NCBI GenBank assembly: GCA_949152475.1
Contig: OX424563.1
Coordinates: 19,875,001-19,939,000 of the forward strand
Length of the DNA: 64,000 nt
Reading direction: 5' to 3'
Origin: Terebella lapidaria
Lineage: Eukaryota; Annelida; Polychaeta; Terebellida; Terebellidae
A model generated the notes under the pieces. The model was not told where the DNA came from. It made no database searches and saw only the letters and a program-made list of their open reading frames with translations. How positions within the stretch are numbered: the first letter of the stretch is position 1; every line of letters begins with the position of its first letter. Positions 1,136 through 53,494 of the stretch are shown piece after piece. Both the position numbers and the translations under genes were made by a program.

Positions 1136-1442
1136 ATTCCATCAGGTGTACAGTAGAAACAACTACATTTCACACACTGTCTGCCCCTGAAGGCGCAAGT
1201 GTGTCTTTGGATAAACTAATTGATCGGGCTTTGTTTCTGTTGCAAAATGTTGTATTTCATGTTTGTTACTATTATAATCTAAATCTAGTTGGATTGGTGG
1301 TAATAGATTGGTACTTACATGCATAGCACTGAGCCGGTGTCACTGCTGGTGGACGTTAAATCTGTCCCCGAGGATACCATAAAGTCAGTAGCCTTTCCGT
1401 CTTGTGATTAGGTACTTATGAACTTGTCATGTATCTATTTCA
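1136..1442 (+). repeat. dispersed repeat family, copy 1
   Basis: A unit containing a GGTGTACAGTAGAAACAAC block, a CTGTCTGCCCCTG block and, from about 1327, a block beginning ACTGAGCCGGTGTCACTG. The same order recurs at 1922-2282 and, shortened, at 2283-2520. Diverged single copies lie near 11640-11830 and 41765-41870. The short open frames here repeat between copies and look non-coding. No terminal repeats or reverse transcriptase are visible, so the class is unknown. Confidence 0.75.
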
Positions 1443-1921
1443 TACGGAGCCGCTGAAAGGACATGGAAGAAATATTTTTTGACATACAGTTATTGCGTTC
1501 CCTCGCAATAATATTGCGTTCCCTCGCAATATTATCGCGTTCCCTCGCAATCCGGATCGCGTTCCCTCGCGATCTTATTGCGTTCCCTCGCAATCCAGAT
1601 CGCGTTCCCTCGCGATATTATCGCGTTCCCTCGCATTCCGGATCGCGTTCCCTCGCGATCTTGTAGAATAACCTTCTCAGAAGTCATTGGCGGCAGCACA
1701 ATGCGAGGGAACGCGATCCAGAATGCGAGGGAACGCGATAATATCGCGAGGGAACGCGATCTGGATTGCGAGGGAACGCGATCCGGATTGCGAGGGAACG
1801 CAATAAGATCGCGAGGGAACGCGATCCGGAATGCGAGGGAACGCGATAATATTGCGAGGGAACGCAATAACAATGTGCTAAAAATATTTCTTCCATGTCC
1901 TCTCAGAGGTCCGTAATTTCA
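1437..1921. mobile_element. Foldback element A with 6 bp target duplication
   Basis: The element is 1443-1915 (473 bp). It starts TACGGAG and ends TCCGTA, and is flanked by ATTTCA on both sides (1437-1442 and 1916-1921). The outer ends are imperfect inverted repeats sharing AGGACATGGAAGAAATATTT. Each arm is an array of a 12-mer GCGTTCCCTCGC (its complement on the right) spaced every 21 bp: starts at 1495, 1516, 1537 and onward on the left. A short unique loop lies around 1667-1700. The neighbouring repeat junction at about 2282 shows the uninterrupted site. There is no coding capacity; open frames on both strands are by-products of the repeat. Mobilisation in trans is inferred. Confidence 0.85.
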
Positions 1922-2520
1922 TGGGGTCTGTTTCGGATTTCTAAATTAGCTTCATATGTTGTTGGGCAGTTATATACTAATTCCGTCAGGTGTACAGTAG
2001 AAACAACTACATTTCACACCCTGTCCGCCCCTGGTGACGCCAGTGAGTCCTTGGATGAACTAATTGATCGGGCTTTGTTTCTACTGCAAAATGTTGTATT
2101 TTATGTTTGTTATTGTTATGATCAAAATCTAGTTGGATTGGTGGTAATAGATTGGTACTTACATTCATAACACTGAGCCGGTGTCACTGCTGGTGGACGT
2201 TAAATCTGTCCCCGAGGATACCATGAAGTCACTAGCCTTTGTCTCGTGATTAGCTACTTATGTACTTGTCATGTATCTATTTCTTGGGGTTTGTTTCGGA
2301 TTTCTAAAATAGTTTCATATGTTGTTGGGCAGTTGTGTACTAATTCCATCAGGTGTACAATAGAAACAACTACATTTCACACACTGTCTACCCCTGGTGA
2401 TGCCAGTGTGTCCTTTGATAAACTAATTGGTCTGGCTTTGTTTCTATTGCAAAATGTATTTTATGTTTGTTAATGTCATAATCAAAATTTAGTTGGATTG
2501 GTGGTAATAGATTGTTACTT
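1922..2520 (+). repeat. dispersed repeat family, copies 2 and 3 in tandem
   Basis: Two further head-to-tail copies of the unit at 1136-1442. The first (about 1922-2282) includes the ACTGAGCCGGTGTCACTG block; the second (about 2283-2520) lacks it. The junction between them, CTATTTCTTGGGGTTTG, corresponds to the empty target of foldback element A. The copies differ by scattered substitutions, so they are not recent. Confidence 0.75.
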
Positions 2521-5500
2521 ACATGACAGAACAAACGTTTAGATTGTGGAAGCTACAACACATGTACAACGTAATCACATCGATTTGAGCACATTTCCAA
2601 TAAGATGCAGTTCGTCCTATAACAGATAAAGCCAATGGCTTAATATCATCTGCATTTCCATCTTCATTTCTGAAAAAAAACTATACTGTTTAGATTTCGA
2701 ATTTATGTAATTTTTAACTTGGATAATCTCGTCATACAGAGGGATACGATTCATCTACAGTTCGTTGCTTCGACTATGGCACTGAGCTAAGACAATAATC
2801 TGTCGCTTGGCATATACATTAACCAAAGGGTTTCGAAGTGATTCAAATATAGTAGCTATAATCTAAACTTAGCACGCCATAATTAGACAATTTGACTGGA
2901 ATTACGCTATAATTAGACAATTTGACTGGAATTAGATACAGACAATGCGAATTCTTGGTACTGTGCTCACACTTCTGCTAATAGGGCAAGTACATCGTCT
3001 ATTGTCTGTTATCTGTACCGACATTTTTGCAATCCTCGAACGTGGACAAGGCCTTCACCCTTGCTATTTCATTATTGGAGGGCTGGAGAGTTTTCTATCA
3101 CCATATGACATCAGAAGTTAAAGCCCCTATTTGTATTGACGAACAAAAAAGAACAACAGATTTATAAACGGCCATTCGCGATCTATATAAATACGCGGGA
3201 AATCCTTGGTGACCCATTTGTCTTACTCATTAAACTTAATCACTTTCACTGATACCTGCTTCGTTCGAGACACAACGATGAACAGTTTTTTTCTCTTGTG
3301 AATGGTAACAATTGATAATATGAAGATTCACAATGTTATCCAGATAGATCGATAATCCCGGGCCGTATTTCCTGGAAAACGGCTGACGCGCCCCGACTGA
3401 TAAAAGAGCAATTGACGCTTGCCATTCTAACAGCTGATTGTCCCCTACATGCTGGATGAATAGGTTAACATTCGAATGTAAACAAATGGCAAGCAGATAG
3501 GGACTAGGTAGACGTTAACGGCCAAGTGGTGTGCTTCATTTCGACCCGGAGTCAAATATGTCAAGGCCCGATATGGTATGAACTGCTAGAATTTATATGC
3601 CTCTTTGCGTCACTGTAAAACACGCACGTTTAAGGATTAAGTTCACTGCTCCAAAGGTAGGTTTCCTTTTGTGTCCTTCAGAATAATATAAAGAAAACGT
3701 CCATCGGAACCTGGTGGTCAAATTTTGACGTCAGTAAAAATAGAAAAAAAAAATTTGCTGACGCAGTTTCGAATACCTATTTTTGCATTATTCGTAAAGT
3801 CTTCGAAAAATCAAGCGAGCGTTCAGCAGTGTATCGTTTATCATGTGTTTCACGATTCGATTCTCTACATGTCCTACAAATACAAAGAAAGCACATGTTC
3901 AGTGCAGGTTTACTAGTATATCGCTGAAACATTAGTTTTGGCCTGTCACAAGTCAAGTTGGACTGAACTTCGTTGCATGCCAAGGAGTATAAAATCATGA
4001 TCTACTGCAAAGATAAATATTCAAAGGTCTGCAGAACATTTTATCGCTTGATGAAAAAAAAAAAACATTGCACTGCAAAGCCGTTGGACGCCTCTACGAC
4101 AATTCGGTACGCAATGCGTTCTTACCATTCATGAAATTTACCTATCGGATCAGTGCTTCAGCATTGAACCGGTCCGGTCATCGCTATTATCACGTATTCG
4201 GTAATGGTTCTCTGGAACCACTCGGGGTGAAATAATCAAAGTACCCGAAATGTCTTGCGAGGTTATTAAACATAATTAAAATGTAAAACGTCTCGCAAAA
4301 TATCAAATTATTTTCGGGGGAATTGCTTCGATTTCATATTCAATAAGCAGTATTGTTCATAACAAATACACGCTGCTGTCAGAGAGTTAGACCAGAGCCA
4401 CCCATGGACTTCTATGTCACACCTAAAACAAATTCAAGGTTCGCTCTTGTCATCATTCAAATCTGATTGTATTGCTCGTAATAGGTTGACAGTTACACCC
4501 TTATACTTCTGCCCTCTTTGCCGTCACCAACAACGAAAACGACATAGTGCACTCGTTCGTTATAACGACCTTCAAAGCTGGACGGAAGTACATAAATTTC
4601 TCCAATATCAACTGAAGTGTACAGAATGCATGCCCAAATGTCATATCGTCATCAATTATGTCAATCTATCCTTCTCCTAGACATATCGCTATCGGGTTGT
4701 TTCTTGGAAATCCTCCATGCTTAATGCCTTTCGGATGGGGCTTCTTCCAGTTGCGTGCATGCATTTTAATGGGAAACAGTCCTCTCCTATATGTACTTGC
4801 TATATATTTATATATATCCCAGGGACCTGAATGTTTTTTTTTTAAAAAACAAAAACAGAATTCATACTCATATACATATATATGTTGGAATTTGTTACCC
4901 ATAGGCTTTCGGTTTCGCTTCGAAAGAAATGACTTGTTTCGTCGAAGCCATGGTTGCTTTTCGTATGGAGATGTAAATCGATATCAGACAAAGCTGCTAT
5001 TTACAGACACTTTTGATTATGTTCCTACACACAGGGGACTTTTACATTCATATTTATATATTTTACGCTGTCGGTTAATATTCAATTTTAAAGCTCGTAA
5101 AAAGGATCTTCGTTTAAGTCTAGATGGCGTCACATTTAATTACAAAGATAAAATAAAATTCCAGCCTTTCTGGAACTGATGCCACGGAAAGACTACAACA
5201 CACACACCTGAGTCAAATGTCTATATTTGGAGAGTCGGTTGCAAACCCTGGCCACATCAATTGATCCAATAAAGATCGGGCACCTGTCTCCAGAATACGC
5301 TAAATGCATACGTCGAGTACATATCAAGCTGGGGGATGGGAGGGGGGTGTCAGTGCTCTCAATATTGACCAAGTTAAAGACCACATAAAACCACATTTAC
5401 CATTGTTTATCATTTGCCGGGTTGACACAATGTCACACGCGTGTGCATTTCCCCGCCAACGCACGTGCCAGCTCGACCAATCAGAATCCTGCAAATACGT

Positions 5501-5660
5501 GTCGTTTGGTGACACGGGATTACAGGCTAGACTAATATATGGTATCAATTGCCCAGGTAAGAACACCCTCAGCTATCACCAACCTGTTGCCCCAACCCCC
5601 CTCCACCCTTACATCTGCCCCAGACACGCGTAAGCGTCATAATTTGACCTTGAATATTGA
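2521..5660. other. Gene-poor stretch upstream of the micro-exon gene
   Basis: No recognisable gene. It contains a short direct duplication at about 2878-2935 (ATTAGACAATTTGACTGGAA twice) and a TATATAAA at 3184-3191 followed about 90 bp later by an ATG in a fair context (3278) whose frame closes after seven codons. The 173-residue open frame at 4658-5179 is rich in Phe and Tyr from AT-rich DNA and resembles no family I know. Confidence 0.45.
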
Positions 5661-5671
5661 TACTAAACCAC

Positions 5672-5679
5672 TATATAAG
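5672..5679 (+). promoter_or_regulatory. TATA box of the micro-exon gene
   Basis: TATATAAG lies 265 bp upstream of the ATG at 5937, implying a start of transcription near 5700 and a 5' leader of about 235 nt without an intervening gene. No transcript evidence is available. Confidence 0.5.
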
Positions 5680-5936
5680 CACGCATTACCTTGATATGTG
5701 AAACTTGAACTTCACATTCGAACATTTGATCACATAGAGACTTTGTCTTTTCAACTGGAAATTTTGTTTCGACTGGACAATCTCAATGCAAATCGGTGCA
5801 AATACTAACAACAAACAGCTCCTCCAAACAACGACGAAATAACAAAAGCAAACTTTGTTGTGTCATCAAACGCCATACTCTCAAAGACGTAGCTGTGATA
5901 TACTCTCAAAACTGACAAACAAAAAACCCTTAAAAC

Positions 5937-8900: not shown

Positions 8901-11900
8901 TTTTATAATCGAATCCATTCTAGGTTAAATACAACATCCTTTTTAAAAAAAAACTGCTATGTGTATACTGGTGGAATACACTGTCCTACATGTATCTTTG
9001 TCAAAAACGGTGGATGCGAACGACAACCTCAGGAACAAATCAAGTTGTACATTAAAGACGCCAGTTGCAATAATTATCGTGGACATTCCTAGATAATCCC
9101 ATTTTCCGAATAGTGGTCGGGTATTACACCAATCGAACACTTTAACCTATTATTCCTATAAACTGCTTTCTACTTACCAGCATGATTTGGAATTGGATAC
9201 AACGACAGAGAAAGTAAGTTCATTGGATTATTATTTCAAATTTATACTAAGGGATTATATGAAGGGCATCAATACGATATGTTCATCCTATAAAATGAAT
9301 TTTTTTTTTTTATTCTACACCAGTACGAATTAGACTGGGACACAACCACAGAGCATGTGAGTGTCTTCACGTACTTCTTTCCTCAAATCAGTCCAAACAA
9401 TACATGATAAATGAATAGACAAAATAATATTCATGTATGTTTTGATTATTTGTCATGTTTATGCTGATACGTACGTTAGGTAAACTATTTTTTTTCAACC
9501 AGATCCAGTCAAATTTTACATGATGATTGTTTGATTAGTAATAATAGTTATTTGAATTTGTACGGAAATTTTATTAATTCTCATGCAGTGTAATTCTGTT
9601 TTGTGGGTGATTCAAACGGTAAATCTATATTCGTCATGGCTGGATTTGACACGAATGAATTTTTAAATCACTTGTTTACTAATGAAAATTCAGTTGATAA
9701 GCTTCTAAGAGTATTTTAATAAATTTTTACGATGTAAAATATACATGTAAATGGAACCAGAGGATTATGAGTAAGTTACAAAATTAAACATTCGATCATG
9801 CAGTTAAAAGGCAAGTGAGGTTTTTTTTCGTTTTATGTGCATAATATATACGGATCTTAACATATGGTATAGCATTTTCATAGTATATGTAACGTTACAT
9901 TGACAGCCGGTAACAGAGGAAAACATGGAGAATAGGATTCGGCGTAACATTCACAATAACAATGTGAGTAATCAGCGCGCGGATCGCATCACTTCTCAAA
10001 ACTGCTTTCTTTGGTGAAATGCTTAATACAATTACCCACATATGAACAAGATATAAGGCGGTAGTTCGTTTTATATGTTCACGATTTCAATATTCTTAGC
10101 ACATGAACAAAAACCATCGGATTACTTTGGAACAGCTTTCTTTTGAGTTTTAAAACTAGACTAACAACACTACGAATAATTCAAAAATAACTTCTGTTCT
10201 GATAGCTTCTTCAAACCTCATCTCGTAGGTCAAGAAAACTCGTAAGTTACTAGTAAACTATCGGTATTTTGTTGCTGGCTTCAGTCATTGGGTAATTCCA
10301 GACATTCAAAGTATACAAGTTGCCTATGTGTCACATATTAGAAAATATACATATGAACACGTTGTAAAGTATGACAATAAATTGTACTTTTTATTTGTAT
10401 TGAATGGGAATTATTGTGAACAAATGTGCAATAAAATATGCCTGATGCATACTTGCTGTTGGTGATTTACTAACTGTTTTTTAAGGGCCGACTTCGGTAT
10501 CGCCGAAAATCTCGTAAAAACGTGAGTTTTCGGAACAAGAATTGTGTTTAGAAATTGTCTGTATGTAGTGATTCCTCATGGAACTGATGAACCATCGTAT
10601 GGACCAACGTTTAAGCATGAGTTTCAGTTGTGAAATTTCAGCGAAATACCCCTTTAGTGAAACGACATTCAATTTTATAAGAATCTGTCTTCCGTGAATC
10701 CATGCTTTTTTGGCTAGTCACAATGCTCATGCTTGGGTTCCTACAATGGTGCTGGGACGTTCTATACCGCTATTGTTATCGGAAATTCTTGGAGAAATTC
10801 TTCGAAGCTCGACCACCTTGTGTCTAGTCCAAACTTTGTCACGCAAAGTGTGCCAATAAAAAATAAAAGTAATATCATGAGAACTTTATTTTTGATTCGA
10901 CTCGGTGGATTATACCCATGTGTACCATTGCTGATCTACGAACAAAAACGTTGGTTAATAAAACAGATACATGCACATATACAACAAATCGTTTCAACCG
11001 AGACTGATCGATGGATGTTTATATGCTATATTCGTATAATGTTGAAGACTGTTACATGTCCAGCAAATCAAAACTCACGGAACAAGATGCATGTTAATTT
11101 TTATTGTTGGAGTAATAATTTGATGGAGAATAAGATTTTGATGAAGTCAATGGTATACCTAAAAACGTCGAATGAAAAGAACGGCCGACCAATCATAACA
11201 TCCGAATCCACATAAACAGACAGTGTGCGAAATATATTCGTTCCTACTTGGAACTAGTAACACTTGTATACAGCTGGTGTGGAATTGTAGGTATTACAGC
11301 TGAAGGTCTAAGAGATTACGTAATATACTAGACTTTTAATCAAGTTGTCTGACATTTGTTGAAAAATGTGGCATTTGTAGGATCTGTACAGTAATTATAT
11401 TGGTATACAATTCAGAAAATTTGAATACATATATGGCTTTTGAAGCAAATCATGGTTCCATATATTTGTTGTTGTTTTTTCTGGAAAAAAAATGGAGTAT
11501 TGTTTTGTGTTTATTGCAAACTAATCGCCATCCTCTCCTATTGACATCATCTGACTGTGGTGATGTATCGATATTCGATAAATTGTATCTATTTTGTGAA
11601 AATAAAAATACCTTCTATTCAGTAGCCTTCACGCTCTCGATTGAGTACTAGGTTTGCTTTGGATTTCTGAATTGTTATAAAAAGTTGTTATTCAGTGGTA
11701 CCAATTCCGTCAGATATACAGTGAAAACAAAAACATTTTACACACTGTCTGCCTCTGATGACACTAGTGTGTCTTGGATCTGAGTGTTTGGTCGGGCTTA
11801 ATTATTCCCCCAAAAGTTTCATTCTAGGTTTTTTTATATAGGTTTTCTTCATCTAGGTTTTGTCCATCGTGATCATATGGTGCTGGTGGTGATCATGGGA

Positions 11901-13395
11901 TACATGCTTAAGTAACTCTGGAAGTATGCCAAAAATACATGATTTTCTCAATTCATGTAGATGTTAACGATAATAACAACATTCTAGGAACCAAATTATT
12001 GTTGCCCAAATGGAGTGTACTTTCTACGTTTCAAATCAAAATGTATCAGGCTAATATGTCTGTTTGAATAGGTATATGTTGTTCCAATCGCAGTTTCACC
12101 TTTCATACGTGAAATCAGGTGTACAGATTCTGTACAGTCAATTGTGGATTGGAATGTAGAAGTTAATTATTCAGTAGCATCTACAATAATCATTTGGTAC
12201 GTACTCATATGATAATGTAGGATAAAGTTTTATGTATTATTAGCGTGTTCAATGAAAAAGAGATAGTGTATGTAAATGTATCAGAAATTACAAAAACTGA
12301 CTTAATGCTCAGATCAAAACTCAGATATCACATTTTCTCATATGTTTTAATTGTGGGCAATTTTTTTTTTATTCAATTTATGTTTTATTAACAATTCAGC
12401 GAACCCATGGACGATGGAGTCTATTGGCGAACGTAAGTGAATTTCCAAGGATAATTTCACACAAATGTTCTAGAGTAACGATTCCCGTTTCTCACGTGGT
12501 ATTACATATATTCGATACCTCAAAGTTAACCCGAGATTTGTACATTTTGCAGATGCTAAGTTTAGAAGACAAAATTAACAACACCAAAAATGTAAGATAT
12601 TCAGCACCACGACAGATGTATAAATGTTCAATGATCACAGATATCTGGATTACATATTTCAGTGCATTTAAATCATTACCTCTGGTATAACAAAATAGAT
12701 CGTATATTATGTGTACGGTCATGGCGTGATTTTATTGCATTATAGGAATCCGATCACGACCCCTTGAATTTGAACGTGAGTTAACTGTCGGTTTGTCCGT
12801 TGGTATAATATGCAAAAATAGTATGTTATATAGCATGTAAATATAGCGTATAATATATCCGACTGTATACAATTTGCAGGATGGATACCAATTTGGCTCA
12901 TCATCCACGCCAGTAAGTGTAATAACATGTAGCATGTATTTGTCCAACTTTACAATATCAAATCTGAACAAAGTAAAAAAGGGTTCGCGTGTTCATTTTA
13001 CTGTTTTGCACGACGGACGTCTTTATTCTATAATTTAATCTCTAATTTTATTGAAGAAAATGAGGACGGAGTCTTTGGACGGAGTCAAATGAAGAAGAAA
13101 TATTGCTCTCTGGACTATATCTATCTCGCCTGTGTATAGAATATCCAGATTTCATTGTAGTATGATAATGGTGCTTTCTAATGAGGTTTTGTATTTATAA
13201 CTGTTTTACATTTTGTTGTTTTCCCTCTGCAGAGTCCCATAGATACTAGTAGATCTAGGGAAGGCTGTGGTCCAACCCAAGTGAGTTCAGTTCTAAGGCA
13301 CCAAGTTAGATGTTATCCCATGTTATCATATAATTACAATAGATAATGTATGTACCAGTACTAGTACTTATCTGGCACATTGTCATATACAAATA

Positions 13396-13451
<56 letters not shown>

Positions 13452-18278: not shown

Positions 18279-21200
18279 TTAATAGGTTCCGTAGAAATCA
18301 TCATCCGGCGTCGTATCCCCATCGTTCTGGTAGGTTTCATACCGTACCGTCGTTTTCTCACTCATTTTCAGTGCCTGCACGCACACAATGACCAAATAAC
18401 CGATTTGTGAGTTTCAAAGTGTAGTATTAAAATTCTCCATCATACATCATTATCATCTCTTATAAATTCGACTGTATTGTGTAATGGTGGTATACTGTAA
18501 CATGATTATTATCTATAGCAACAACAAAAATTATCCCAAGGGCCAGGAAAGGTTACCGGAGAAATATTTACGGTTAAACCCCAATTTTTTTTGCCTTTCC
18601 GCCGTTTTGACCCTTAAAGGTCATTAAAGGTCAAATTCAAGGTCACCTGTAAAGTTAAAAAAATGTTCAAAAGGGCAAAAAAACTTGATTTGGGACGAAA
18701 AACTTTTTCTTTGCCGACCTGTCGAAAAAATCAAAATGGCCGCCATGCGAGGATCCGCTATTCGAGGGCAACAAAACTTATACATGACGCGAAGGTACAT
18801 AAGGGGAATCTTCTGGAACAAAAATCTCAAAAATGGTCAGTTAAAAAAATGGCCGCGAAAGTAAATTGGCCATTTTTCGTCAAAAATGGCCGCCATTTTG
18901 AAAAAAATTGCGAAAATAAAAAAAAACTACGAAAAACCTCCCTCCTGAAATATTTTTAGGTATTTTGGTGCAAAGAAAGAATCAGAAAAATTAGAACGTA
19001 AACTTTAAAACTAAAAATGTAGACGGACGACGACGACCTCGACGCACGCAACGCCACGCCAATAGGTTATCGGAACAAAGGGTCGTTAAGCTAAAAATTT
19101 TCGTGCACTCACCGTTTTTTCGTCCTTGTTCGGTGGCTGCCGTAGGAAATACAACAGCGGTGCATACAAAACGTTCGCTATTCCTATAATTGTCAACATC
19201 CTGGGGGAATAAAATAATGACAGAACGTTACGAATTGTACACATAATTCAAGAAAAATAACATCAACTCAATCGGGTCAATTTTGTTCCACTGAGAAAAA
19301 TACCTTTGAAATATTATTCTTTGTTTATCATGTACTGCGAATTTTCAATGTGTTTTTACATTTTCAATTTTTGTGGCAGTTCGTTAGGAGGCACTTACCA
19401 TTTAAAGCCAATTGCTTTAATTATGGGACCACTTAGTGCTGGGCCTGTTAAATGTAGAATCGTATTGAAGATGTAATAGACGTATTAAAGCTCTTTCAGG
19501 TGAATAAACGCATACATGGTGGGAATCAAACAGGACATATCGAGCAATTCAATGGTGAGGGATAAATTTTCTCTAGATACGGACCTATAGCATATCCAAC
19601 GCAGAATGCGACGTCCCCTATGGCATAGACACTGCCATAGACCGGGACATGTCTCAGATCCACGATATACCCCAGTATCGGCATCATAGAAGAGTCAACC
19701 ATTCCTGTAGAAATATACAGACATGTTAAGTTAGTAAATTCACATCTTATGAATCAAGCATATAAATTATGCCAAAATGTACTAGTATACATGTGACACA
19801 CGTGTTGTTTGACTTAATATTGGGTATATTTCTGCTGTGATTTTGATCATTGCATAAAATGTGATAACTTCAGTATTTTACATATAATCAATGTCAGTAT
19901 TTGGGCAGTTTTTTACTCACCAATAGAAAATCCCAGACCAAAATTAGGAGGTATTAGATGCCCAACTTTTGTTGCGAGTGGAATCTGTCAAGATACAGAA
20001 CGAATTTAACGATTTGTGATTGAACAAGGGCAGCTACTGCACACAAATCCATTCAGAATGTGTCATCGGCTGAACATATATTGAACAAAATGTATCAAAT
20101 TGGCCATGATCAATATCCAACAGAAAAGGTGTGTAACTTGCAAATTCCGATTGCAAGATACGATTTGACCTCCTAGCTATCCAATTATTTGCTCGATTGA
20201 CATAATTTCTCTCCATTTCACTTCTTTAGTGACTAGTCCATCTTCGCATTTTGCCAGAACATTGCAAGTTGAAGTTTTGCATGTGTTTGCAATGTATTGC
20301 AAATAGTTTATAACCACGAAGACCGTATTTAATACTTACACACAGGAGACAAACTCCCACAATAATCATTCCTATCATTGACGACAACCATCTGGAAAAC
20401 GGGTGTGGTGATATACGTAATATAATGTAAGTATATTATTATTATTATATTATTATGGTTATATATAATTATAAATGCAAATGGGACGTTCATTGATTTG
20501 CGGAAGTATTCTAATCTCAAACGTACCTGCCGAGTTTATGTCCCAAAGGACCGAATAGATTCGTTCCTAATAAATAGGATATACTGGCGGGTAGGAAGGC
20601 AGCACCTAGAGAATCAGGAATAGGCTTCTTCGAATTCACAAAATTCTCCAGGATAGGATGACAACGTTGAATCCCATAGAATGTTGTATATGCAACTATT
20701 AGCAGTCTGAACCCTGACTACCGTAATGCACGTTACGGTAACTGGTTACGGTAGTCAGGGTTCGGGCGGTGATAATTTCGTATGTGAGGTTAAGTCAGTG
20801 GAATGCTTAGGTTCAGCTTACCTTGCTGCCATTTCGCTGCGTCCATGTGTTCCCACATCCACAGAGGCAGGGTCGGCTCCAACATCGCTATACCCATGTT
20901 GGCAAACGTGATCGAGCCTGATAAAAACGGAATCTTCCATATATTATATTAAGCATACATTTAAACATCAATGCATGATAAACGTTAAAGTCATAGTAGC
21001 AAGGTACCATTATATGGTTTTATTCCTGTTCACATAAAGACATTGTGGACATTTGGTGATAAAAAAAGGTGTTCGTGTTAATCGGTAACTAATAACAGCG
21101 ACATGTAATGGAGTATATTGAGCCAGTATTGCAATCGCCTTCTCCTGCCGATGAAAGAAATAGCTTCGGCAATTTCCGTAATCGTGACGTCAGTTGAGGC

Positions 21201-27200: not shown

Positions 27201-30200
27201 TTGCTGAACTGAACATACATTATATGTACAGATATACGTATGTTGAAAAATCATGCATATCCAGTTAGAAGATAACGTATAAATCTAGCACAATTGTGCT
27301 AATTAAGTGAAGACTTATTTATTCCTTAGTAGACCATGCTAGGTATGAAGACTTATTTATTCCTTAGTAGACCATGCCTGGTATGGACTGCACTTCAATG
27401 TTCGTCTTTTAGGTGGTTCTACCCCCATGCTTTTTGGTTCTACCTGTGCCAAGTCAGGTATTACCGGCGACTTTCAGCCGGCAAACGATCAAAGCAAACG
27501 TCTCTCTTTAGTTAAAACCTGGCCCCATGCTGATCATCAGACAACTGACAAAAGACCGTCTGAATGCAACCAAACAGCATGGCACCAACAATACAGACGT
27601 GCCCAATGTCCCGATTGCGTGCTAGAGATACAATCAATAACACTTATGATACACTATAATGCGGTGCTCTTTTTTTCTTTCTACCCGACTTGCAAACTCC
27701 AAGGTATGCTGAATGTTTAGAATGAGTGTCGACTTGAATGTCCCCAATCTCTCTCGCGGTGTTTTTGCGAGGGGATGAGGCAAACTGGGCAAAAATATTT
27801 GAAAGAAGCATTGCTATTTCGAGTGAGAGTTTGCAGGGGGGGAAAAAGTCGATGATGACGTTATTTTGCCTCATTCAAACGAGTAACCCAAAATAATAGT
27901 CTCTTCAATTTTGATTGCAGAGGGCCGGGGATTAGCATGAAAGAGAAATAACATGGTGTTGTAGTGTGCTCTTGTTTTTGCTCCATGAGGGATTTTTTTA
28001 AAGATAATTTTGCTTTTAGCGGCATATTTGATGACAAAAATAGTTTGATGTTACAATAACACTTTTTATTGCTTGAATGTGACACGCGTGCATTCGTAAT
28101 TTGCTGGAATTGTATGAATTTTCAGAGGTGATAAGACTGGCAAATACGTAATTGAATTTCACTGTGGATATAGACACCATTGGCGAATTAATTGACTTTT
28201 AGTGGCGATGTTGACACCACTGGCGAATACTTAATTCACTTCTACTGGATATATAGATACCACTGGCGAATACGTAATTGACTTCTACTTGGCGAATACG
28301 TAATTTACTTCTACTTGAGATATAGATCTCTGGTGAATACGTAATTGACTTCTACTGTAGATATTGATACCACTGGCAAATACGTAATTTACTTCTACTG
28401 TAGATATAGATACCTCTGGCGAATACATAATTTACTTCTACTGTAGATATAGATACCTCTGGCGAATACATAATTTACTTCTACTGGATATATAGATACC
28501 ACTGGCGAATACGTAATTGACTTCTACTTGGCGAATACGTGATTTACTTCTACTGGAGATATAGATACCACTGGCAAATACGTAATTGACTTCTACTGTA
28601 GATATTGATACCACTGGCGAATACGTAATTTACTTCTACTGTAGATATAGATACCTCTGGCGAATACATAATTTACTTCTACTGGATATATAGATACCAC
28701 TGGCGAATACGTTGGTCTTTTAGTGGAGATATTGATACCGCAGGTGACTACATCATTTCCTGGACAAGAAAATGAGGTTGATCATGGAAAGCTAAGACTT
28801 ATGTTATCTGTCGATATTCATAGGAGCTCACTATGTTTGGTGCTGACCAGTAAGGTCACCGACTATGTGTCAACATCATCAATTTCGCTATGCATGATTG
28901 AATTCCCTTGAAGATGGCATTAAATGAAAACTATTCTTCACAGAATTACTTTTCAATCGATTAGCGGCTACATATACCACATTGAGCCTTCCAATATCTG
29001 GGAACAATATTTTATATACCTAGAACATTTTTTTTCATTCGCTAATGCATCCTATTTAAACTTGCTGTCGATGAAGATATTATTGGTATGCATTCAGTGT
29101 AATCAAAAGGACTGTGTTATAGGTTATGAGAGGACAAGTGGGTTCAGTTTCGTCTCTAAACAGCATTGTAATAAAAATTTATCGTGTTCCAACAATGAAC
29201 ATTCCTGATATTCCATCAAGATTCCCATTTCTCGGGAATGTTTCTGTGCGGTCTTGCAAATGGAATGCTTATGAGTTGACTAATTTGATTTAACGGAACT
29301 TAGATGCAAGCTAAGATACGTGTACAATATGTATCAGCAGAGTTAACACCATTATTTCTGGCATTCCAGCATTGATATATCATACATGTCTCGGATTGCT
29401 GAAATGTACCTTTGCTGGTGTCCAACAAAGGGACGTTTCTTTACATTTCAGGAGTGTTCCTTCAAACTGACCTGATTCTTGGGAAGGATTGTGTTGAATG
29501 CAGTCGCGAGCACGTTTTGTTACAATGCTTTGTGTGGCCAATACGTACATTTTCTGCATATACACATTAACAAATACTAACCTGTTTGTCAGGGGTCCGA
29601 CAAAAGGGTTAGCTATGAGTTGGACCATAGCTTTCGAGGCGAACATCAACCCCACGGCGATATTCTCGTCTGAAATCGCCTCATGTCGCTTGGCTTTCCT
29701 CAGTAGTTCCTCTTCCGGTGAGAACGTGGCGTTGGGGTTAGTCAGTGCAGTGACGTTGTACGATCCTATTGGCTCTTCGCCGGAACCCTCCCACGCCCAC
29801 TCATCGGCGGGCGCTGATTGGTTGGTGACTGTCTCGCACTTGTAGGAGATGACCCAGCCGACGGCCGGGACCCAGACCTGCAGGATGCTGGATGAGTGGT
29901 CGATGGTATCCTGTCGCCGACACGTCGTGTTGTAGTAGTAGATCGTGGTCTTGTTGGTGACGGGAGGACGCGTGGCCAAGTCATCCTTGTGCTCCAAGCC
30001 GTACAGGAAGTGTGGAAGGATTGGAACTGTAGTGGGACACGATATAAATTGTACATAGAGTAGCTAGTGAGTTATCAAACATTGTTATATCTTCAAAAAA
30101 CAAAAATATAAAAAGGACGAAAGGATATTCTTGAAGATAGGGTCTACCATGTGAGAATATTGAAGCATTGTATCGATATCGTTTTGGCAATAAATTTGAT

Positions 30201-33488: not shown

Positions 33489-33490
<2 letters not shown>

Positions 33491-33542: not shown

Positions 33543-33545
<3 letters not shown>

Positions 33546-38970: not shown

Positions 38971-39786
38971 CATAGCTACGGAAGAGGATTAGGGCCACCA
39001 AACTAAAAGTTTTTTTCTCTATTTGTCGACTTACGTAACTCGATAAATCGACTTACGTTTCTCGATAAATCGAATTACGTATCTCGATAAATCGACTTAC
39101 GTATCTCGATAAATAGACTTATGGCTCAGACATTTAAAGTACAAGTAAAATGAATATACATCGACCGTAATATAGGCAAGCCATACACCATTTCATTGGT
39201 TACCATGGCAACGATAGGACGAAGAAAATATATACAGATCACTCATATTGAAAATTATATGGAGTTTAACAGTCATTACACTAATCACTGAAATAATACC
39301 AAACTATCCAATTGTAGAAGCCGTTCCAGATAACGTTACGAATATACATCATTCTATGTTTAATAGCTAAATAAATAAATAAAAAACTCAAACAATTATA
39401 CCAATTTCATTCATAAACATATTGCATTGTTTGAAAAGATATGATATAATAACTTCAGTATATTTTTATTTCGGTAGTTTGTTCTGTATTACTCGATTTA
39501 TCGAGATAATAAGTCGATTTAACGAGATAATTAACTCGATTTTATCGAGATAAATATCTCGATTTATCGAGATAATAAGTCGATTTATCGTGATAGTATC
39601 TCGATTTATCGAGATAATTAACTCGATTTATCGAGATGAATAAGTCGATTTATCGAGATAATATCTCGATTTATCGAGATAATCTCTCGATTTATCGAGA
39701 TAGTAAGTCGATTTATCAAGATACGTAAGTCGACAAATAAAAAAAAAAGTTTAGTTGCTTGGCCCTAATCCTCTTCCGTACATAGC
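38971..39786. mobile_element. Foldback element B with 6 bp target duplication
   Basis: The element is 38977-39780 (804 bp). It starts TACGGAAGAGGATTAGGGCC, ends with the exact complement of that 20-mer, and is flanked by CATAGC on both sides (38971-38976 and 39781-39786). Inside the ends are short tandem arrays in opposite orientation: about five units of CTCGATAAATCGACTTACGT on the left (39029-39122) and about eleven 21-22 bp units of the type CTCGATTTATCGAGATAA on the right (39490-39735). A unique centre lies between. There is no open reading frame of note. The arms have different unit numbers, consistent with repeat expansion after formation. Confidence 0.88.
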
Positions 39787-41764: not shown

Positions 41765-41870
41765 GGATTTGGCAGCTGTATGGTAGAAACGAATACATTT
41801 GATACACTGACTGCCCCTGATGTTACTCTCCTGTGTGGCTTGGATTTGGTTTAACTGGGATTTGTTTCCA
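41765..41870 (+). repeat. diverged copy of the 1136-type dispersed repeat
   Basis: ATGGTAGAAACGAATACATT, ACACTGACTGCCCCTGATG and a TGTGTGGCTTGGAT block recur in the same order as in the copies at 1136-2520 and 11640-11830. Confidence 0.5.
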
Positions 41871-44695: not shown

Positions 44696-44743
44696 GTCAC
44701 ACTATGCGAGTCAGTCGCACGTCCGGTTGCATAGTGTGACATG
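44696..44743. repeat. Short inverted repeat
   Basis: TGTCACACTATGC is followed about 20 bp later by its exact complement GCATAGTGTGACA. The loop contains further GTCGCAC/GTCC words. Its meaning is unknown. Confidence 0.7.
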
Positions 44744-45167
44744 GGTATGTGACTGCACTCAGCCGCATGTAACAAACAGGTTCAATGTCTTGTGACTCCG
44801 TAGCATGGGGTTCCAATAGCAAATGTTGAGTGGAATTTTAGACATACTGAGCACATGCGGACAGTTTGTAGCTTGATGACAACATGCAAGACAAGGATGG
44901 AGTGGTCACATGAGGCGGAAGATGTTCTTCTGGATACATGTAGGAACATATGGTCCGGGCTTGTATAGAACTATAATACTGGCAGGTTGAGATGAAGGTC
45001 CTAGACGCACATTGAATATGACTCTCATATAGTCACATTGAAATTGATGTCATATATTATATAAGGCTATTCATATATCACACCACTAAAAATTGTTAGT
45101 AACGAGTTTGGAATTATAGCACTGGTTTCCACATCGGTACTCTTTTCAAATGTATATTTTTGTTTTT

Positions 45168-45517
45168 GATCTTGAATCACTGGTTTGCACGCGGCGTCCA
45201 TTTTGTTGTTTCGCCGATCATCTACTAGAATTAAATATACCATAATTTGAAAACTCCTGCGTTATGAGTGGAGTATTATCACTGTAGATAAGCGGTGGCG
45301 CGGTAAAATAATTTCGAACAGGCTTGGTGATCAATTTCGAACGATCTTGAATCACTGGTTTGCACGCGGCGTCCATTTTGTTGTTTCGCCGATCATCTAC
45401 TAGAATTAAATATACCATAATTTGAAAACTCCTGCGTTATGAGTGGAGTATTATCACTGTAGATAAGCGGTGGCGCGGTAAAATAATTTCGAACAGGCTT
45501 GGTGATCAATTTCGAAC
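45168..45517. repeat. 175 bp tandem duplication spanning the left end of element D
   Basis: 45168-45342 is repeated at 45343-45517, apparently without mismatch. Each copy contains about 112 bp of flank followed by the first 63 bp of the inverted-repeat element (CACTG at 45280 and again at 45455). The near identity implies a recent duplication after the element had inserted. Confidence 0.85.
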
Positions 45518-48261
45518 GATTGATGGTCAATTTCGAACGGTTGGCGATCTATTTTGAACGGTCCACATAATAAAGTATGTGAAAAGTATATTTGTCTGAT
45601 GTTTATGTCACAAATATTTATATTTACCACCTCGGTGAAACCTTACTGACCGTTGGAATTCTTTTGAAGCATATTCGGGAGTTTTTATGATTATTTATTA
45701 TTTATTTTTGAATGGCGAGAAGCAGTATACATGTCATTAATATGTAATATCGTTATTAGTGTGTGCAAATGTTTGACGAGTCCGTTAAATTGAACTTGTA
45801 CCTAGACATAGCTAAATGGAATCACGTTATGCTGTTTGATTGATGCATATTCCTCAAAACGAGCCCGAATCGAGTAGAAAAGAAAAATTTAAATGTGGTC
45901 AATTTCGAACGCTCATAAATGACAGGCGAGTAATTTCGAACGGTTTGTTGATAGCTCTGCTGAACTATTTCACCGTGAAAATTGTGTTTGTGTTGTGATT
46001 TCTTTTGATTTCTGTTTCTTGGGTGGGGGTTGGGGGGTTTGGGGGTTACAAATATCAGTAGGTTAGTCATTATTACTTTTCATTACTTTTTATCTCTCGG
46101 ATAAGCCTATGACAAGCCAACATTCTATTTGGTGTTTAGCATTGAAAGGATTATATACATACACTGTACACTGTAAAATTGATTAAATGCATATATGTTG
46201 AGCATCTAGCCACCTCCCCTTCTCCCTCTCCTCTCCAAGTACATGAGGTGCTTAGTCTAGTAGTACGGGTGGGTATAAAATATGTCTGGAAAACGCATAA
46301 TCGGTATACATATACAATGTGAAAAGTATCAAATTCTGGCTCAGTATTGTCCAAAATGGAGATGTGAAAAGGACAAAAAAATGCAATGTATAATATATTG
46401 AAAGTTTACGAGGAAAACGGATGTAAAAGACTGGGTAACTGATGTTCGCATGATATTGTCTCACGGGTTTGGGGATGTGTGGTATTTATAAAGAATACAG
46501 AACTATTTGTGAATACATTTCGGCAGAGGGTAACAGATTTTGCACACAAAATTGGTATTCAAAATTGTCTGTAAAAAGTCAAACTACTACCGAAATTACA
46601 AAACAGAACTGACTCTAGAAAAGTGTTTGTTCATTAATTTGTATATTGGAAACACATAATATCTGTGGCCAGATTTAGATGTTCAAATCATAAACTTGGT
46701 ATAGAGAAGAACAGGCACAACAAAACAAAACAAGATGCTCGCTTTTGCCAGTATTGTAAATCAGTAAATAATATCAATTTAATAGAAGATGAATGTCATT
46801 TTGTCCTAATTTGCCCACTACATGTATATAATAATTTAAGCCAGAAATACTTAAACAAATTCATTGTACCAAACTGTAGCACAGTAGCATGCTTTCAATT
46901 TAGCATGTCACACAAGAAAGATGAATGTTTCAGAAGTTTAGCTGCCTTTATATATATAACGCTGAAATTACTCGTGATAAATACCATTACTTGTGATGTA
47001 CGCTGTATTTTATTTGTCTCAAACCACGATATATTGTATGTTTCTACGCATATATGGGCCCGTTGGCCTTTGTGAATAAAGCATTATCATAATCGGTATC
47101 CGCAAGCATGGACATACCATCCAGTAGTAAAATGTATGCATGAATAATATATGTGCACATACAAGTCAACATCCCAAAAAGTTACATAGGCTAGGGTGTA
47201 TGGTATCCCGGCGTGGCGGGCCAGCTCATTTCGGTCCTTCATATGAACACTGATAGTATATATATGAAGGCTCTATCAATGAATGTGATACTATATCTAA
47301 TGAACATTAAACTGTTAAAAAAAATCGCCTTCAACCAGCATAAAATATCTTTGAATGGACGATAATGTCACATCTGATCCCACAAAGTCGTAGTCATCGC
47401 CATTTTCATCCATTGGCAGTGGTACATCTTCAACCACCAGTTTCTTAGACATATCTGACATTTCTAGGGGTTGACAAATACCTTTGCTCAGGTATTTTTT
47501 TCAACGGGCTTCCTGTGTCTTAAGTCTTTTGTCTGAATATCAGTCAACCCTCTTCAACCCTGCAAACATCGCTTGGCATATCCTTTGCCATACATTTGTA
47601 GTGCAAGGCTTATAACCTTTATTATCTTTGCACAATTATGCTGATTCTCATTTCCGCGTGTTCTGTGTCATCATAAGGAATCTTACAGTGGTATCACCAA
47701 AAACTGACCATGATGACGCCGATAGGAACCCATAGAAAACATTATACAGGAGTTTTTAATGTTCGAAATTGATCGCCTATGAAAAATAACCGTTCGAAAT
47801 CAACACCGCCCGTTCGAAATTGATCGCTTATCAATATTATTCTTATCACGGTGTTAGCGTGTTTATCCTTTGATCTCCATACTTCAATTTTTAGATATAG
47901 GTTGTGAGCCATATTTTCATTGAAAGTCATCAATATACGATAATAAAATTGGTCTATATATTACGCAAATTGTCATCGAAATGGAATCATCAGGAAATAC
48001 AAGATGACTTGTGTTTCCACGTCTACCTGGAAACCCTCAACTGCTTACAAACGACATACGATCATTTCTTTGTCCCCAATATGAAAGTTTATGTCTATAA
48101 ATCTGAAATTACTTCACAATTTACACACTTTTCACCCTGTTTCAGTGTGCGGACCGTTCGAAATTATCACTAACCGTTCGAAATTGATCACCAACCGTTC
48201 GAAATTGATCACCAAGCCCGTTCAAAATTATTTTACCGCGCCACCGCTTGTCTATACAGTG
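45280..48261. mobile_element. Large inverted-repeat element D with TTCGAA arm repeats
   Basis: The left end CACTGTAGATAAGCGG and right end CCGCTTGTCTATACAGTG are inverted repeats that continue through GGTGGCGCGGTAAAATAATT. Inside are 20-21 bp tandem units of the type GATCAATTTCGAACGGT in opposite orientation on the two sides (45310-45565 and 48150-48225), with extra scattered units at 45897-45940 and 47757-47830. The duplicated left end makes the boundary either 45280 or 45455. The target duplication is ambiguous (ATTAT or TATT). The element encloses a decayed LINE fragment. The arm design resembles foldback elements A-C but the ends differ. Confidence 0.7.
46500..47090 (+). pseudogene. Decayed LINE reverse-transcriptase C-terminus
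   Basis: In one plus frame, ARFRCSNHKLGIEKNRH is followed by ARFCQYC and EDECHFVLICPL. This is the arrangement seen at the C-terminal end of the ORF2 protein of many animal non-LTR retrotransposons (a CxxC...DExHFllxC zinc-finger-like segment). Continuing upstream, the frame is interrupted by TAA codons (for example in NCL*KVK), and no polymerase catalytic motif is visible. It is therefore a truncated, dead copy. It sits within element D. Confidence 0.65.
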
Positions 48262-48934
48262 ATTATTGTAAGCGAAGCATAACACTGACCAATGCCTGAG
48301 CGCAGAAGCCGGACACTTTACACCCTTTGATTGAGCTAGAACAAATTGCGGACAGATGGAATCATTTCCCGAGTTCAGTTGTATGTAGACGAGATTTTCA
48401 GATGTTTCCTGTCCGATTCGACTGATTGCTCGAAGTTGTGCTCCTGCTCTTTATGGTCGGTCACGATAATAGAGCAAACATTCGATATAAACTTCGATGT
48501 GTAATTGTATTGATTGCCTCCAGTACATCCTACATCTGTACAAGAGTCTTGACATATATACAGGCCACACTACATGACCATGAGGTAAGTCGCCCGGATC
48601 AAAATACAAAGATCACAATGTACAAAAACATGATATGGACCATGTCAATAAATATACCACATACCGGAGAGACAAATAGGCGTACTTCAACTGTTGCTGT
48701 AAGTTTCACAATTATTTGAAGTGTTAAATCAATCTAATAAATATATTTAAATGTCGAATATTGGAAACTATTATCTAAAATCATGTCCTGCTTGAGGATA
48801 ACCCAGGGAGACGTACGACACTTTGAATAATCATGGAATGATCATGGAATATATCATTCAAATTTCCATGCCTGATTTAACTCGCCAGTTTGTATGCCTT
48901 CTCCACAGGAGTATTATTAACACACGGCCGGGCC

Positions 48935-51282
48935 ATGTTCCAACGAGATATCTACCGCTCGATATACGAATATTTCGGTGGCGACCACGCCAAGATCAGC
49001 ATGATAGGTTTGTAATATAGGGGAGAAAAGCATATTGTTCACAAAATTGTCTCTTCATCACGAACGTGACTTACAGGTATAAAAACCATTGACATTTTAC
49101 ACAAGCATAGTGATAACATAACGGAGTACATAAATAAATCTATCAAACAAAGTTCATAGAGCATATAAATCTATCATTTACAAATTGTGCTTCGAGTATT
49201 TTATGAAGTAGCTGCTATACTGACATCGCTATATTTGGCAGGCAGCAATGTGATCATGATTGGGGTGTTCTGGCTTGTGGGCGGTCTGTTCCTCTTTGTG
49301 GACGTGTGCCAGTGGCCACGGTGGATGTTCAACTACAAAGTTCAACAGGACAAGAATGTTCCCGTGCGGTTTTTTTCTCCCATTCACACGTTGGGTTCAC
49401 TTGTATAGTTATTTCAGTTGTAGCAAGTATTCATAGATGCTCCTCAATGAGTGTCCATTTGATATCAAAATTACGAGCTTTGGTGTTGACAAAAAAAAAA
49501 ATTTTTGGCGAGTAAATATTTTTAGGAACCATGTAAATTGGAACCATTGCAAACAAGGCCATCCACACAATTCTAAAACTCCATTTCTATTTTTTGTCGC
49601 TATCCAAATTGCCAGCCAACTACTAATTTTGCATATGATATATACCTAGCTTTGTATGCCTTACTGCAGTAATCCCACTAAAACAAGTAGAGATATTTCA
49701 AGTAGACCTACATTGAATGATACCGGTTAACAAAGAAGTCGATTGTCACAGATTGACCGAGCCAAACTCTGGAAGTGTATAAAGGTAGTAGCATTTAACA
49801 ATCTGGTAGTGAACACGCTCGTCGCGACTTACCCAATGTACGCCACTCAGAGCCTTCGGGGCTGTAGCTTCGAGGTGGCTGATGTCCCCACGTGGCCCAG
49901 GATCGCTTTAGACCTCTTCGTCTCCGGACTTGTCCAGGAGGTCATCTTCTACTACTCGCACAGGTTGGGTACTGACTAGATCCAGTATGTATAAGTTATA
50001 GTGTTCTGTTTAATTGGCTGATTGGCATCCCGCCCTGATTCTTTCCTTCTTGTTCTTCTTGCTCTTTTTGTTCCATAAGTCCAATTATTCTTCCCCCTGA
50101 CTTCTTCTCTTTATATATTTTCCATTGGTCCACTTTTTCTCTCTGACTCCTGTCTTCGTTATAACATGTTCAAATTTTGCTTGCTCAATTCAATTAATTC
50201 AGATACCGATAGGTTTTATTTTATGGGTCTCTCCAGAAACCCAGATCTCTCTTATGGGTTTCTCATGGTTTTCTGGTCTCATCTATTACTCCCAGCATTT
50301 AGCCTGTTTCAAATAGACTACCCTCCATATTTTAGACTGTTTCACGTGCCATGGGTTTACAAGAGAATTCACAAACAGCACCACCAGTGGACTGCACCTA
50401 TCGGTATTGTGGCGATCTACACACATCCCGTGGAATACCTGACAGGCAATGGGGCATCGGTAACTAGAGTTAGGCATTTCCACTTGTTGCAGTCTCTAGA
50501 ATACTACAATATTGCAGGCGTACACGTTTTTACCCCCAAATATTCTCTTTATTTACAACAAAAAGGTATGCTATTATAGAAATAACACGATGTCCTACAA
50601 ATGTTTGAGTTGCTTTCTTTCTTTTAGGTTCTGCTGGGACCTGTGCTGATGAAGTCCCACATTTTCACGTTTTTCGTGTGGTATATATTGGCCAATGTTG
50701 TCACGATTGTACATCACAGCGGTTACCACCTGCCTTTCTTACCTTCCCCGGAGTTCCACGATTATCACCACGCGACGTAGGACAGTGCTGTCTCAATAAA
50801 ATATCATATAATTTAAACACCATTTTTGGAACATTGAAGAAGTGTGTTCTGTGGAGTGGTTCACATCTATTTGACACAATTCATTATTTGAAACAAATAA
50901 CTATTTGATTATTATTCATACAATGCAAGCCTATAGTGCAGTTTTTCAAATAATATTAATTCTAAATGTTCACTTCTCCCATTTATTCAAAACAAATTGA
51001 ATAAGAAGTTGAACATACTTTTTACAAGAGGAACGATTACCAATTAAAAAAATTATCAGGTTGCTCCAGCTTTAAACTATGAATCGTTTATTTTCCAGAT
51101 ACAACTGGAACTTCGGAACTCTAGGTTTCCTGGATAAGTGGCATGGGACCGATAAGAAGTTCCAGCAGAGCATAGAGTATGAGCGACACCAGACGATCTG
51201 GGGATTACACACAATTAGGGATCAGTTTCCGGATCCGCCAAAACAGTCGTCTGCTTCGACACGCGCCGGACCTGGCGGTTAA
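48935..51282 (+). CDS. FAXDC2: FAXDC2-like fatty acid hydroxylase/sterol desaturase family protein
   Basis: A membrane di-iron oxygenase family whose relatives act on sterols and fatty acids at the ER; the substrate is not predictable here. Coding exons: 48935-49007 (the exon itself begins at 48909), 49242-49363, 49752-49963, 50336-50459, 50628-50776 and 51099-51282 (TAA). This gives 864 nt and 287 residues, with all junctions in frame. Visible motifs are FYYSHRLFH (HxxxH box split across an intron), KRIHKQHHQWTAPIG (HxxHH) and GYHLPFLPSPEFHDYHH (second HxxHH). The C-terminal block LGFLDKWHGTDKKF matches the LGVLDxxHGTDxxF of vertebrate FAXDC2. The start at 48935 is the first ATG in the exon. 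The splice acceptor at 48908 implies a further 5' exon. The donor at 48584 would join in a frame stopped just upstream, so that exon would be 5' UTR. Human FAXDC2 is about 45 residues longer at the N-terminus, so an unseen coding exon is possible. Confidence 0.88.
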
Positions 51283-51917
51283 AGTCCTAATGAAGGGATT
51301 CACTAGAACTATAGTAGATTGCATCCTGCATTTTGTATTCGTTGTACTAGTCGTTTGAAATGGTGATCATATTGATAGGTCCAATATATGTCCATGGAAA
51401 ATACTGATCGGTTATGAATTGTAAAATTGTTTGTCATACAGAAAACTGATTGTAATTATTAATAAGCGTTGTATTGAGATTGTAAATTTGTAACATATAA
51501 TATACCGATAACGTGCGCATGTGTCTGTATCAATCAATAATGTACTGTAATCAGCTTTACAAAAACATTTTACCATGTTCTATTGTTTATGCGCATGATA
51601 ATACCACAATTACGATCATTGTTGTAAGTATTCGTGAAAGTTAATTGTTCCTTTTTCTAATTTCATGTTTAGTAAGTTATTCAACTCGGCCTTTTTCGAA
51701 CAAAGTTGAATCTCAATCTGGGACGTATGGGATATATTGGCAATAATTTTTGCGATAGAAGTCTTAAATTTGATAGAAAATTACCGTTTGATTCTAAGGT
51801 GAAGTATACTAAGTGATAAGACGATATCATTTATTTTCGTAATATATGAGCAAAAAACAATAGTTAACAGTGTGAACGATTTAGAAAAATCAGAGTACAT
51901 ATATAATACTTAGTCCA
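51283..51917. other. 3' flank of the FAXDC2-like gene
   Basis: An AT-rich stretch that presumably contains the 3' UTR. No canonical AATAAA was noticed close to the stop, and no other feature was seen. Confidence 0.4.
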
Positions 51918-53494
51918 CACCAGTACGGCGGCCCAATGCTACCATTATTCATGCCTGAGTTAAGAGTAGTTTCGAAATCAGTTTCATAGTTAGTGAACAG
52001 TTATTATCAGTTATGAAACTAGTTTCTAGCAAGGCAAAAACCCTTTACACCTGGCACAAACCTTTCTAGCAGGGCACAAACGTTTTTAGCAGGGTGCAAA
52101 CCTTTCTAGCATGGCGCAAACCTTTTTAGCACGGCACAAAGCTTTATAACAGGGCAGAAACCTTTATAACACGGCACAGACGTTTTTTAACATGGCGCAA
52201 ACCTTTTTATCACGGGACAAACCTTTATAACAGGGCATAAATCTCTGAAACACGGCACAAACCTTTTTAACATGGCGCAAACCTTTTTAACAGGGTAAAA
52301 ACCTTTCCAACACGGCACAAACCTTTTTAACATGGCACAAACCTTCATAACAGGGCACAAACCTTTATAGCAGGGCGCAAACCTTTATAGCAAGGCACAA
52401 ATCTTTATAGCAGGGCGCAAACTTATATAACTGGGAACAAAATTTTTTAACATGGCGCAAACCTTTATAGCAGGGCACAAACCACGGCACAAACTTTTAT
52501 AGCAGGACATAAACCTTTAAAACGGGGCGCAAACCTTTTTAGCACGGTACAAACCTTCATAACAGGGCATAAACCTTTATAACACGGCACAAACCTTTCT
52601 AACATGGCCTAAACCTTTATAGCAGGGCATAAAACTTTATAACAGGGCATAAACGTTTTTAACACGGCACAAACCTTTCTAACATGGCCTAAACCTTTAT
52701 AGCAGGGTATAAACCTTTATAACAGGGCATAAACCTTTTTAACAGGGCACAAACCTTTATAGCAGGGTATAAACCTTTTTAACACGGCACAAACCTTTAT
52801 AACACGGCACAACCCTTTCTAACACGGCACAAACCTTTATAGCAGGGCACAAACGTTCCTAACAGGGTGCGAACCTTTCTAGCATGGCGGTTCGTGCCGT
52901 GCTATGAAGGTTTGCGCCCAGCTAAACAAATTTGTGCCCTGTTATAAAGGTTTGTGCCATGTTAAAAAGGTTTGTGCCCTGTTAGGAAGGTTTGTGCCCT
53001 GTTATAAAGGTTTGTGCCGTGTTAAAAGGGTTTGTGCCATGTTATGAAGGTTTGCGCCCTGCTATGAAGGTTTGTGCCGTGCTATAAAGGTTTGCGCCGA
53101 GCTAAAAAGGTTTGTGCCCTGTTTTAAAGGTTTGTGCCATGTTAGAAAGGTTTGTGCCGTGTTAGAAAGGTTTGTGCCCTGCTATAAAGGTTTGTGCTCT
53201 GTTAAAAAGTTTTTGCGCCATTATAAAAACGTTTGTGCCGTGTTATAAAGGTTCATGCCCTGTTATAAAGCTTTGTGCCGTGATAAAAAGGTTTGCGCCA
53301 TGCTAGAAAGGTTTGCACCCTGCTAAAAACGTTTGTGCCCTGCTAGAAAGGTTTGTGCCGGGTGTAAAGGGTTTGTGCCTTACTAGAAACTAGTTTCATA
53401 ACTGAAAATAACTGTTTACTAACTATGAAACTGATTTCAAAACTACTCTTAACTCAGGCATGAATAATGGCAGCATTGGGCCGCCGTACACCAG
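51918..53494. mobile_element. Foldback element C with 6 bp target duplication (1.57 kb)
   Basis: The element is 51924-53488 (1565 bp). It starts TACGGCGGCCCAATGCTACC and ends in a near-exact complement finishing GGGCCGCCGTA, flanked by CACCAG on both sides (51918-51923 and 53489-53494). About 100 bp of unique inverted-repeat end (ACTCTTAACTCAGGCATGAA and ACTGATTTC...AACTATGAAAC words on the right) leads into arrays of a 20 bp unit, ACCTTTATAGCAGGGCACAA and variants. There are about 40 units in one orientation (52030-52885) and about 25 in the opposite orientation (52886-53390), meeting almost head to head. There is no coding frame. Transcribed, the arms would form a hairpin of several hundred bp. 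Confidence 0.9.

Follow-up and report, generated by a model that had tools for sequence, protein, structure and literature searches.

Three elements with long inverted tandem-repeat arms lie in the window, which is the whole 64,000-nucleotide stretch of Terebella lapidaria DNA analysed here. The question is to which kind of transposon they belong, and whether one transposase could move all of them. The elements are called E1, E2 and E3, as shown in Table 1. All three have TACGG at the start and CCGTA at the end, and lie between the two copies of a perfect 6-bp target duplication. On re-inspection, the coordinates, ends and duplications were exactly as claimed in the original prediction. In E1 and E3, the flanks agree one base beyond the 6-bp duplication, and no such extra match is present in E2. 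The flanks by themselves would formally also allow a 7-bp duplication with asymmetric ends in E1 (ATTTCAT) and E3 (ACACCAG), but not in E2. We favour 6 bp as the true length for all three elements, because the ends are then symmetric and E2 allows no 7-bp reading.

Table 1. Positions of E1, E2 and E3, their parts and their flanking sites in the window
Feature	Position	Strand	Remark
E1 left 6-bp target duplication ATTTCA	1437..1442	.	
E1, 473-bp foldback element, TACGG..CCGTA	1443..1915	.	8 + 8 arm units
E1 non-repetitive left terminal segment	1443..1489	+	segment length set by analyst
E1 left arm array	1490..1662	+	
E1 right arm array, inverted	1700..1870	-	
E1 right 6-bp target duplication ATTTCA	1916..1921	.	
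Paralogous E1 empty site ATTTCT, next ~363-bp repeat copy	2279..2284	.	alignment
E2 left target duplication CATAGC	38971..38976	.	
E2, 804-bp foldback element, TACGG..CCGTA	38977..39780	.	short left array, longer right array
E2 left arm array, 22-bp units, 4.4 copies	39026..39121	+	TRF
E2 right arm array, 21-22 bp units	39491..39733	-	10.9 copies (21 bp; TRF, to 39723)
E2 right target duplication CATAGC	39781..39786	.	
E3 left target duplication CACCAG	51918..51923	.	
E3, 1565-bp foldback element, TACGG..CCGTA	51924..53488	.	
E3 left arm array, 20-bp units, 41.7 copies	52053..52878	+	TRF
E3 right arm array, 20-bp units, 24.5 copies	52889..53379	-	TRF
E3 right target duplication CACCAG	53489..53494	.	

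All three elements have long inverted tandem-repeat arms around a middle domain, which is the anatomy of the foldback structural class. The non-repetitive outer segment of each element is an inverted copy of its opposite end. Over terminal segments whose lengths were chosen by the analyst, the end-to-end comparison gave 39 identities, 7 mismatches and 2 gap positions for E1, 39/48 identities for E2, and 103/108 identities for E3. In E3, the outermost inverted pair of 265 nt (51923-52187 and 53225-53489) is 96% complementary and extends one base past each end, and a 560-column inverted pair is 89% identical. The middle of E2 contains no ORF of at least 110 aa. Folded as single-strand DNA, E1 forms one long hairpin of -249.7 kcal/mol (z -40 against 100 shuffles).

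When an exact 12-base core is used to count the E1 arm units, they follow each other at steps of 21 or 22 bp in 14 of 14 cases, and a 43-bp period is stronger. The steps are mostly 21-22 bp in E2 and mostly 20 bp in E3. Across the three elements, the arms are inverted arrays of short tandem units of 20-22 bp, as had been predicted. The name "two-helical-turn" design, given to these repeats at the same time, is a fair description, although the periods are unequal (20 bp against about 21.5 bp). Perfect outer triplets are present in 10 of the 16 E1 units of the arrays. The self-complementarity of typed unit variants was compared with 1000 shuffles. The value was reached by one shuffle for E1 and by none for the E2 right-arm unit, and the units of E2-left and E3 were not self-complementary beyond the 1000 shuffles; the E1 result carries no weight, the variant typed being a fully palindromic one. 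Another tandem array in the window, at 28136-28739, has a unit of about 43 bp and higher-order periods.

The host sequence around E1 (1126-2525) is a tandem repeat of about 363 bp per copy, the copies being 88-91% identical, and one of them holds the element. The left flank of E1 (1126-1441) is 91% identical to 1969-2283, and the sequence on its right (1916-2164) is 90% identical to 2279-2524. When E1 and one ATTTCA were deleted in silico, the remaining sequence was aligned without gaps to the adjacent repeat copy across the junction. Therefore, E1 was inserted, with the ends listed in Table 1, into a repeat copy that already existed. The 6-mer of the empty site, ATTTCT, differs from the E1 duplication at one base. 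A diverged relative of the host repeat (71-78% identity) is located at 11651-11834.

IS3EU is a eukaryotic DDD/E superfamily that has been in Repbase since 2013. Its complete families are described as always having TA..TA termini, with duplications usually of 6 bp, and GingerRoot, treated jointly with IS3EU, is given 6-bp duplications and termini mostly of TA..TA, occasionally of TG..CA (PMC10045372). The TET-bearing IS3EU families of rust fungi are described with TAYGG..CCRTA ends, inverted repeats of more than 30 bp and 6-bp duplications (PMC12730594). The ends TACGG..CCGTA are one spelling of TAYGG..CCRTA, a signature that comes from fungal families and was compared by description. The TA..TA termini and the perfect 6-bp duplications are found in 3/3 elements here, and the duplication of E1 was also checked against the empty site. 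According to the end comparisons, the terminal inverted repeats of E1, E2 and E3 are like those of the rust-fungus set, both in length (more than 30 bp) and in the terminal signature. Among the literature matches listed, TAYGG was found only in PMC12730594; TACGG in a wheat paper is an unrelated microsatellite in the text matched (PMC4440537).

From these features of the sequence, we regard E1, E2 and E3 as probable non-autonomous foldback derivatives of IS3EU/GingerRoot-type cut-and-paste transposons, with a probability of roughly 0.8. This membership is judged from the termini and the duplications, and the signature shared by the elements is short. The protein that marks IS3EU/GingerRoot is a DDD/E transposase without an HHCC motif upstream of the core. 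Among the 30 ORFs that run from stop to stop within the window over at least 110 aa, none was found to contain a transposase or integrase domain, as would be expected if the elements are non-autonomous. The original prediction of foldback DNA transposons with common termini and 6-bp duplications is supported, and E1 is proven by its internal empty site. Its further statement that no described superfamily has exactly this set was not borne out as regards the termini and the 6-bp length, which are already those described for IS3EU (PMC10045372, PMC12730594).

E1-E3 resemble the IS3EU/GingerRoot elements, as far as the descriptions cited here go, in the TA..TA termini, the TAYGG..CCRTA signature of one set, the 6-bp duplications and the terminal inverted repeats. 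They differ in that no coding sequence was seen in E1-E3, and in that GingerRoot termini are occasionally TG..CA. Long tandem-repeat arms like those of E1-E3 are not mentioned in the parts of the IS3EU/GingerRoot descriptions consulted (PMC10045372, PMC12730594). Styx of Zymoseptoria, described as sharing its origin with IS3EU, likewise has 6-bp duplications and inverted terminal repeats; unlike E1-E3, it is a coding element of about 7.9 kb with 36-bp inverted repeats, and foldback arms are not mentioned in the part of its description consulted (PMC10853768). Among the literature matches listed, foldback IS3EU elements were not described, Repbase and the GingerRoot paper being outside the search. 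In one of these matches, IS3EU is found only in a satellite-similarity table and foldback only in a reference title (PMC8268682).

The next question is the number of transposases. Beyond TACGG, 10 of the 12 cross-element end comparisons showed no similarity. In the other two, E1-left agrees in register with each E2 end at 18/40 positions (uncorrected p of 0.01 and 0.005), whereas local alignments of the same ends are not significant (p 0.35 and 0.17). Thus, the prediction that the sequences just inside the ends are unrelated stands for the 10 comparisons and is less clear for E1-left and E2. The arm-unit sequences, typed from the arrays by the analyst, are unrelated as had been claimed, with no similarity in 3/3 comparisons.

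These results bear on the idea of the original prediction that one transposase moves all three elements; it would need only TACGG and periodic arms and would tolerate unrelated units. Such an enzyme agrees with what the three have in common, namely TACGG, the duplication length of 6 bp and a unit spacing of 20-22 bp, and with the in-register similarity of E1-left and E2. However, this similarity is found in only 2 of 12 uncorrected comparisons and is lost in the local alignments, the units are unrelated, the arm period differs (20 bp against about 21.5 bp), and the distance from the element ends to the arrays is about 50 bp in E1 and E2 against more than 100 bp in E3. In Galileo, moreover, the transposase binding site is described as lying in family-specific inverted-repeat sequence, and the cross-binding as slight (PMC3688188). 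We therefore consider a single transposase unlikely. The stricter proposal, that one IS3EU-type transposase needs only TACGG and a site repeated about two helical turns apart and in this way mobilises unrelated elements, seems to us less likely still. Because little beyond TACGG is common to E1-E3, it is likelier that two or three IS3EU families have each given rise to a foldback derivative than that one promiscuous enzyme moves them all.

Another identity for E1-E3 is that of Mutator-type (MULE) foldbacks. Most foldbacks seem to be Mutator according to the description of Tetris (PMC4079207), Tm1 of root-knot nematodes is a Mutator-like foldback with arm units of 13-15 bp (PMC3169594), and the duplications of the IS256/MuDR group are quoted as 4-10 bp, with which 6 bp alone would be compatible (PMC10045372). 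The duplications of these two foldbacks, however, are given as 8-10 bp for Tetris (PMC4079207) and 9 bp for Tm1 (PMC3169594), against 6 bp together with TACGG in 3/3 elements here, and we consider a Mutator origin improbable. Tm1 is like E1-E3 in its short tandem arm units and in having some short MITE-like members, and is unlike them in its 9-bp duplications, asymmetric outer motifs and Mutator-type (Phantom-like) transposase (PMC3169594). Tetris is also a foldback with arm repeats and apparently non-autonomous, and it differs from E1-E3 in its longer duplications and 220-bp repeats (PMC4079207). Galileo, a P superfamily element that has been compared with Foldback elements, shares long inverted ends and internal tandem repeats with E1-E3; it belongs to another superfamily, and its inverted repeat of about 1.2 kb and four long direct repeats are unlike those found here (PMC3688188).

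The absence of a transposase from the 30 ORFs examined would also suit a superfamily not yet described that has TACGG..CCGTA at its ends and makes 6-bp duplications, but the termini and the duplication length already fit IS3EU, and we give such a superfamily very little weight. Dada, proposed earlier as a comparison point for its duplications of 6-7 bp, is rejected. Dada elements are described as having no terminal inverted repeats, only subterminal ones, and as targeting snRNA/tRNA (small RNA) genes (PMC3706591), whereas E1-E3 have clear terminal inverted repeats and no small RNA gene was detected as their target. In the window, no Rfam family was detected at the gathering threshold and no tRNA was detected, although a small RNA gene split by an insertion could escape this search; the intact empty copy of the E1 site likewise gave no Rfam or tRNA match.

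The frequency of matching flanks was also examined. In the window, 88 pairs of TACGG and CCGTA are located no more than 10 kb apart. A perfect 6-bp duplication is found in three of them, namely E1, E2 and E3, and none of the other 85 pairs has flanking 6-mers with 0 or 1 mismatch. For the 53 pairs no more than 5 kb apart, 0.022 exact 6-mer matches are expected from random position pairs, and the probability of at least three is about 2e-6, uncorrected for the choice of the 5-mer. At least three exact 6-bp pairs are reached by 22 5-mers of the window, TACGG with its three being necessarily among them, and the best 12 of these 22 are mostly A/T-rich or present in arrays. The pair count alone is no proof; the proof is carried by the inverted ends and the E1 empty site. 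That the elements are chance inverted repeats of satellite-like arrays has a negligible probability: the arms do consist of tandem arrays, and 6-bp matches arise by coincidence with other 5-mers as well, mainly in arrays or A/T-rich stretches, but the terminal segments outside the arrays are inverted copies of each other, and for E1 the empty site rules a chance origin out.

Further copies were sought in the window. With TAYGG..CCRTA pairs no more than 15 kb apart, 19 of 1830 have 6-mers with 0 or 1 mismatch. Five of these 19 are exact, consisting of E1, E2, E3 and two A/T-rich pairs, 19422-20327 (TTTAAT) and 20454-20941 (TATTAT), whose ends match over the next 17 bases at only 2 and 5 positions, respectively. 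The ungapped 17-base test scores E1 itself 4/17, as the E1 ends need a gap, and elements with gapped ends can escape it. No further convincing element was found in the window among TA..TA pairs no more than 12 kb apart with exact 6-bp duplications and at least 12/20 ungapped end matches, a screen that skips the true E1 ends for the same reason. No second copy of E1, E2 or E3 was detected by blastn against the rest of the window (E 1e-3), and the E2 terminus and the E1 unit pair each gave 0 matches against viral_contigs.

A second type of inverted element is observed at 45280-48261 (or 45455-48261), with CACTGTA..TACAGTG ends, ATTAT flanks, 141-column arms that are 84% identical, and a few 21-bp repeats. 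A 5-bp duplication together with CAC-type ends would be reminiscent of Transib/RAG-like elements. This element could be due to chance, since it lies at an A/T-rich site and its inverted similarity seemingly continues past the ends. A perfect (100%) 175-bp tandem duplication at 45168-45520 covers its outer left arm, and either arose very recently or is an artefact of the assembly.

A RING-finger ORF is located at 58732-60564. Together with an ORF at 55013, it resembles RNF103, which points to an animal genome. We tentatively take the ORF at 55013, which lies about 1.5 kb beyond the end of E3, as exon 1 of this RNF103-like gene. Apparently within one of its introns, a 147-bp unit is repeated about ten times (56395-57905); two reverse-strand ORFs here show a weak Pfam DUF6793 match below the cut-off.

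On the IS3EU assignment, movement of E1-E3 would be supplied in trans. A DDD/E integrase-like transposase encoded elsewhere would recognise TACGG together with a family-specific inner terminal sequence, excise the element and insert it at a target whose two strands are cut with a 6-bp stagger. Repair of this stagger would leave the 6-bp duplication. The tandem arms have probably grown by slippage or unequal exchange in the hairpin-forming ends, and they may act as repeated secondary binding sites. A precedent for the last role, which was also put forward in the original prediction, may be seen in Galileo, where sites in the first two of four arm direct repeats are described as binding the transposase THAP domain (PMC3688188). 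The foldback structure has been suggested to arise independently in different lineages, through loss of the transposase and elongation of the arms (PMC4079207).

If a single geometry-reading transposase did act on E1-E3, its substrates would be defined by geometry and not by sequence, and the arm sequence would be free to turn over while the periodicity is conserved. If the IS3EU assignment is true, the foldback architecture reaches a superfamily without such a report among the literature matches listed, and the view that foldback structures evolve repeatedly in unrelated transposon lineages gains a further case. The window of 64 kb would then hold three apparently independent cases with a period of 20-22 bp. 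Three such cases would make it testable whether the periodicity is selected through transposase binding or is a by-product of hairpin-prone repeat growth.
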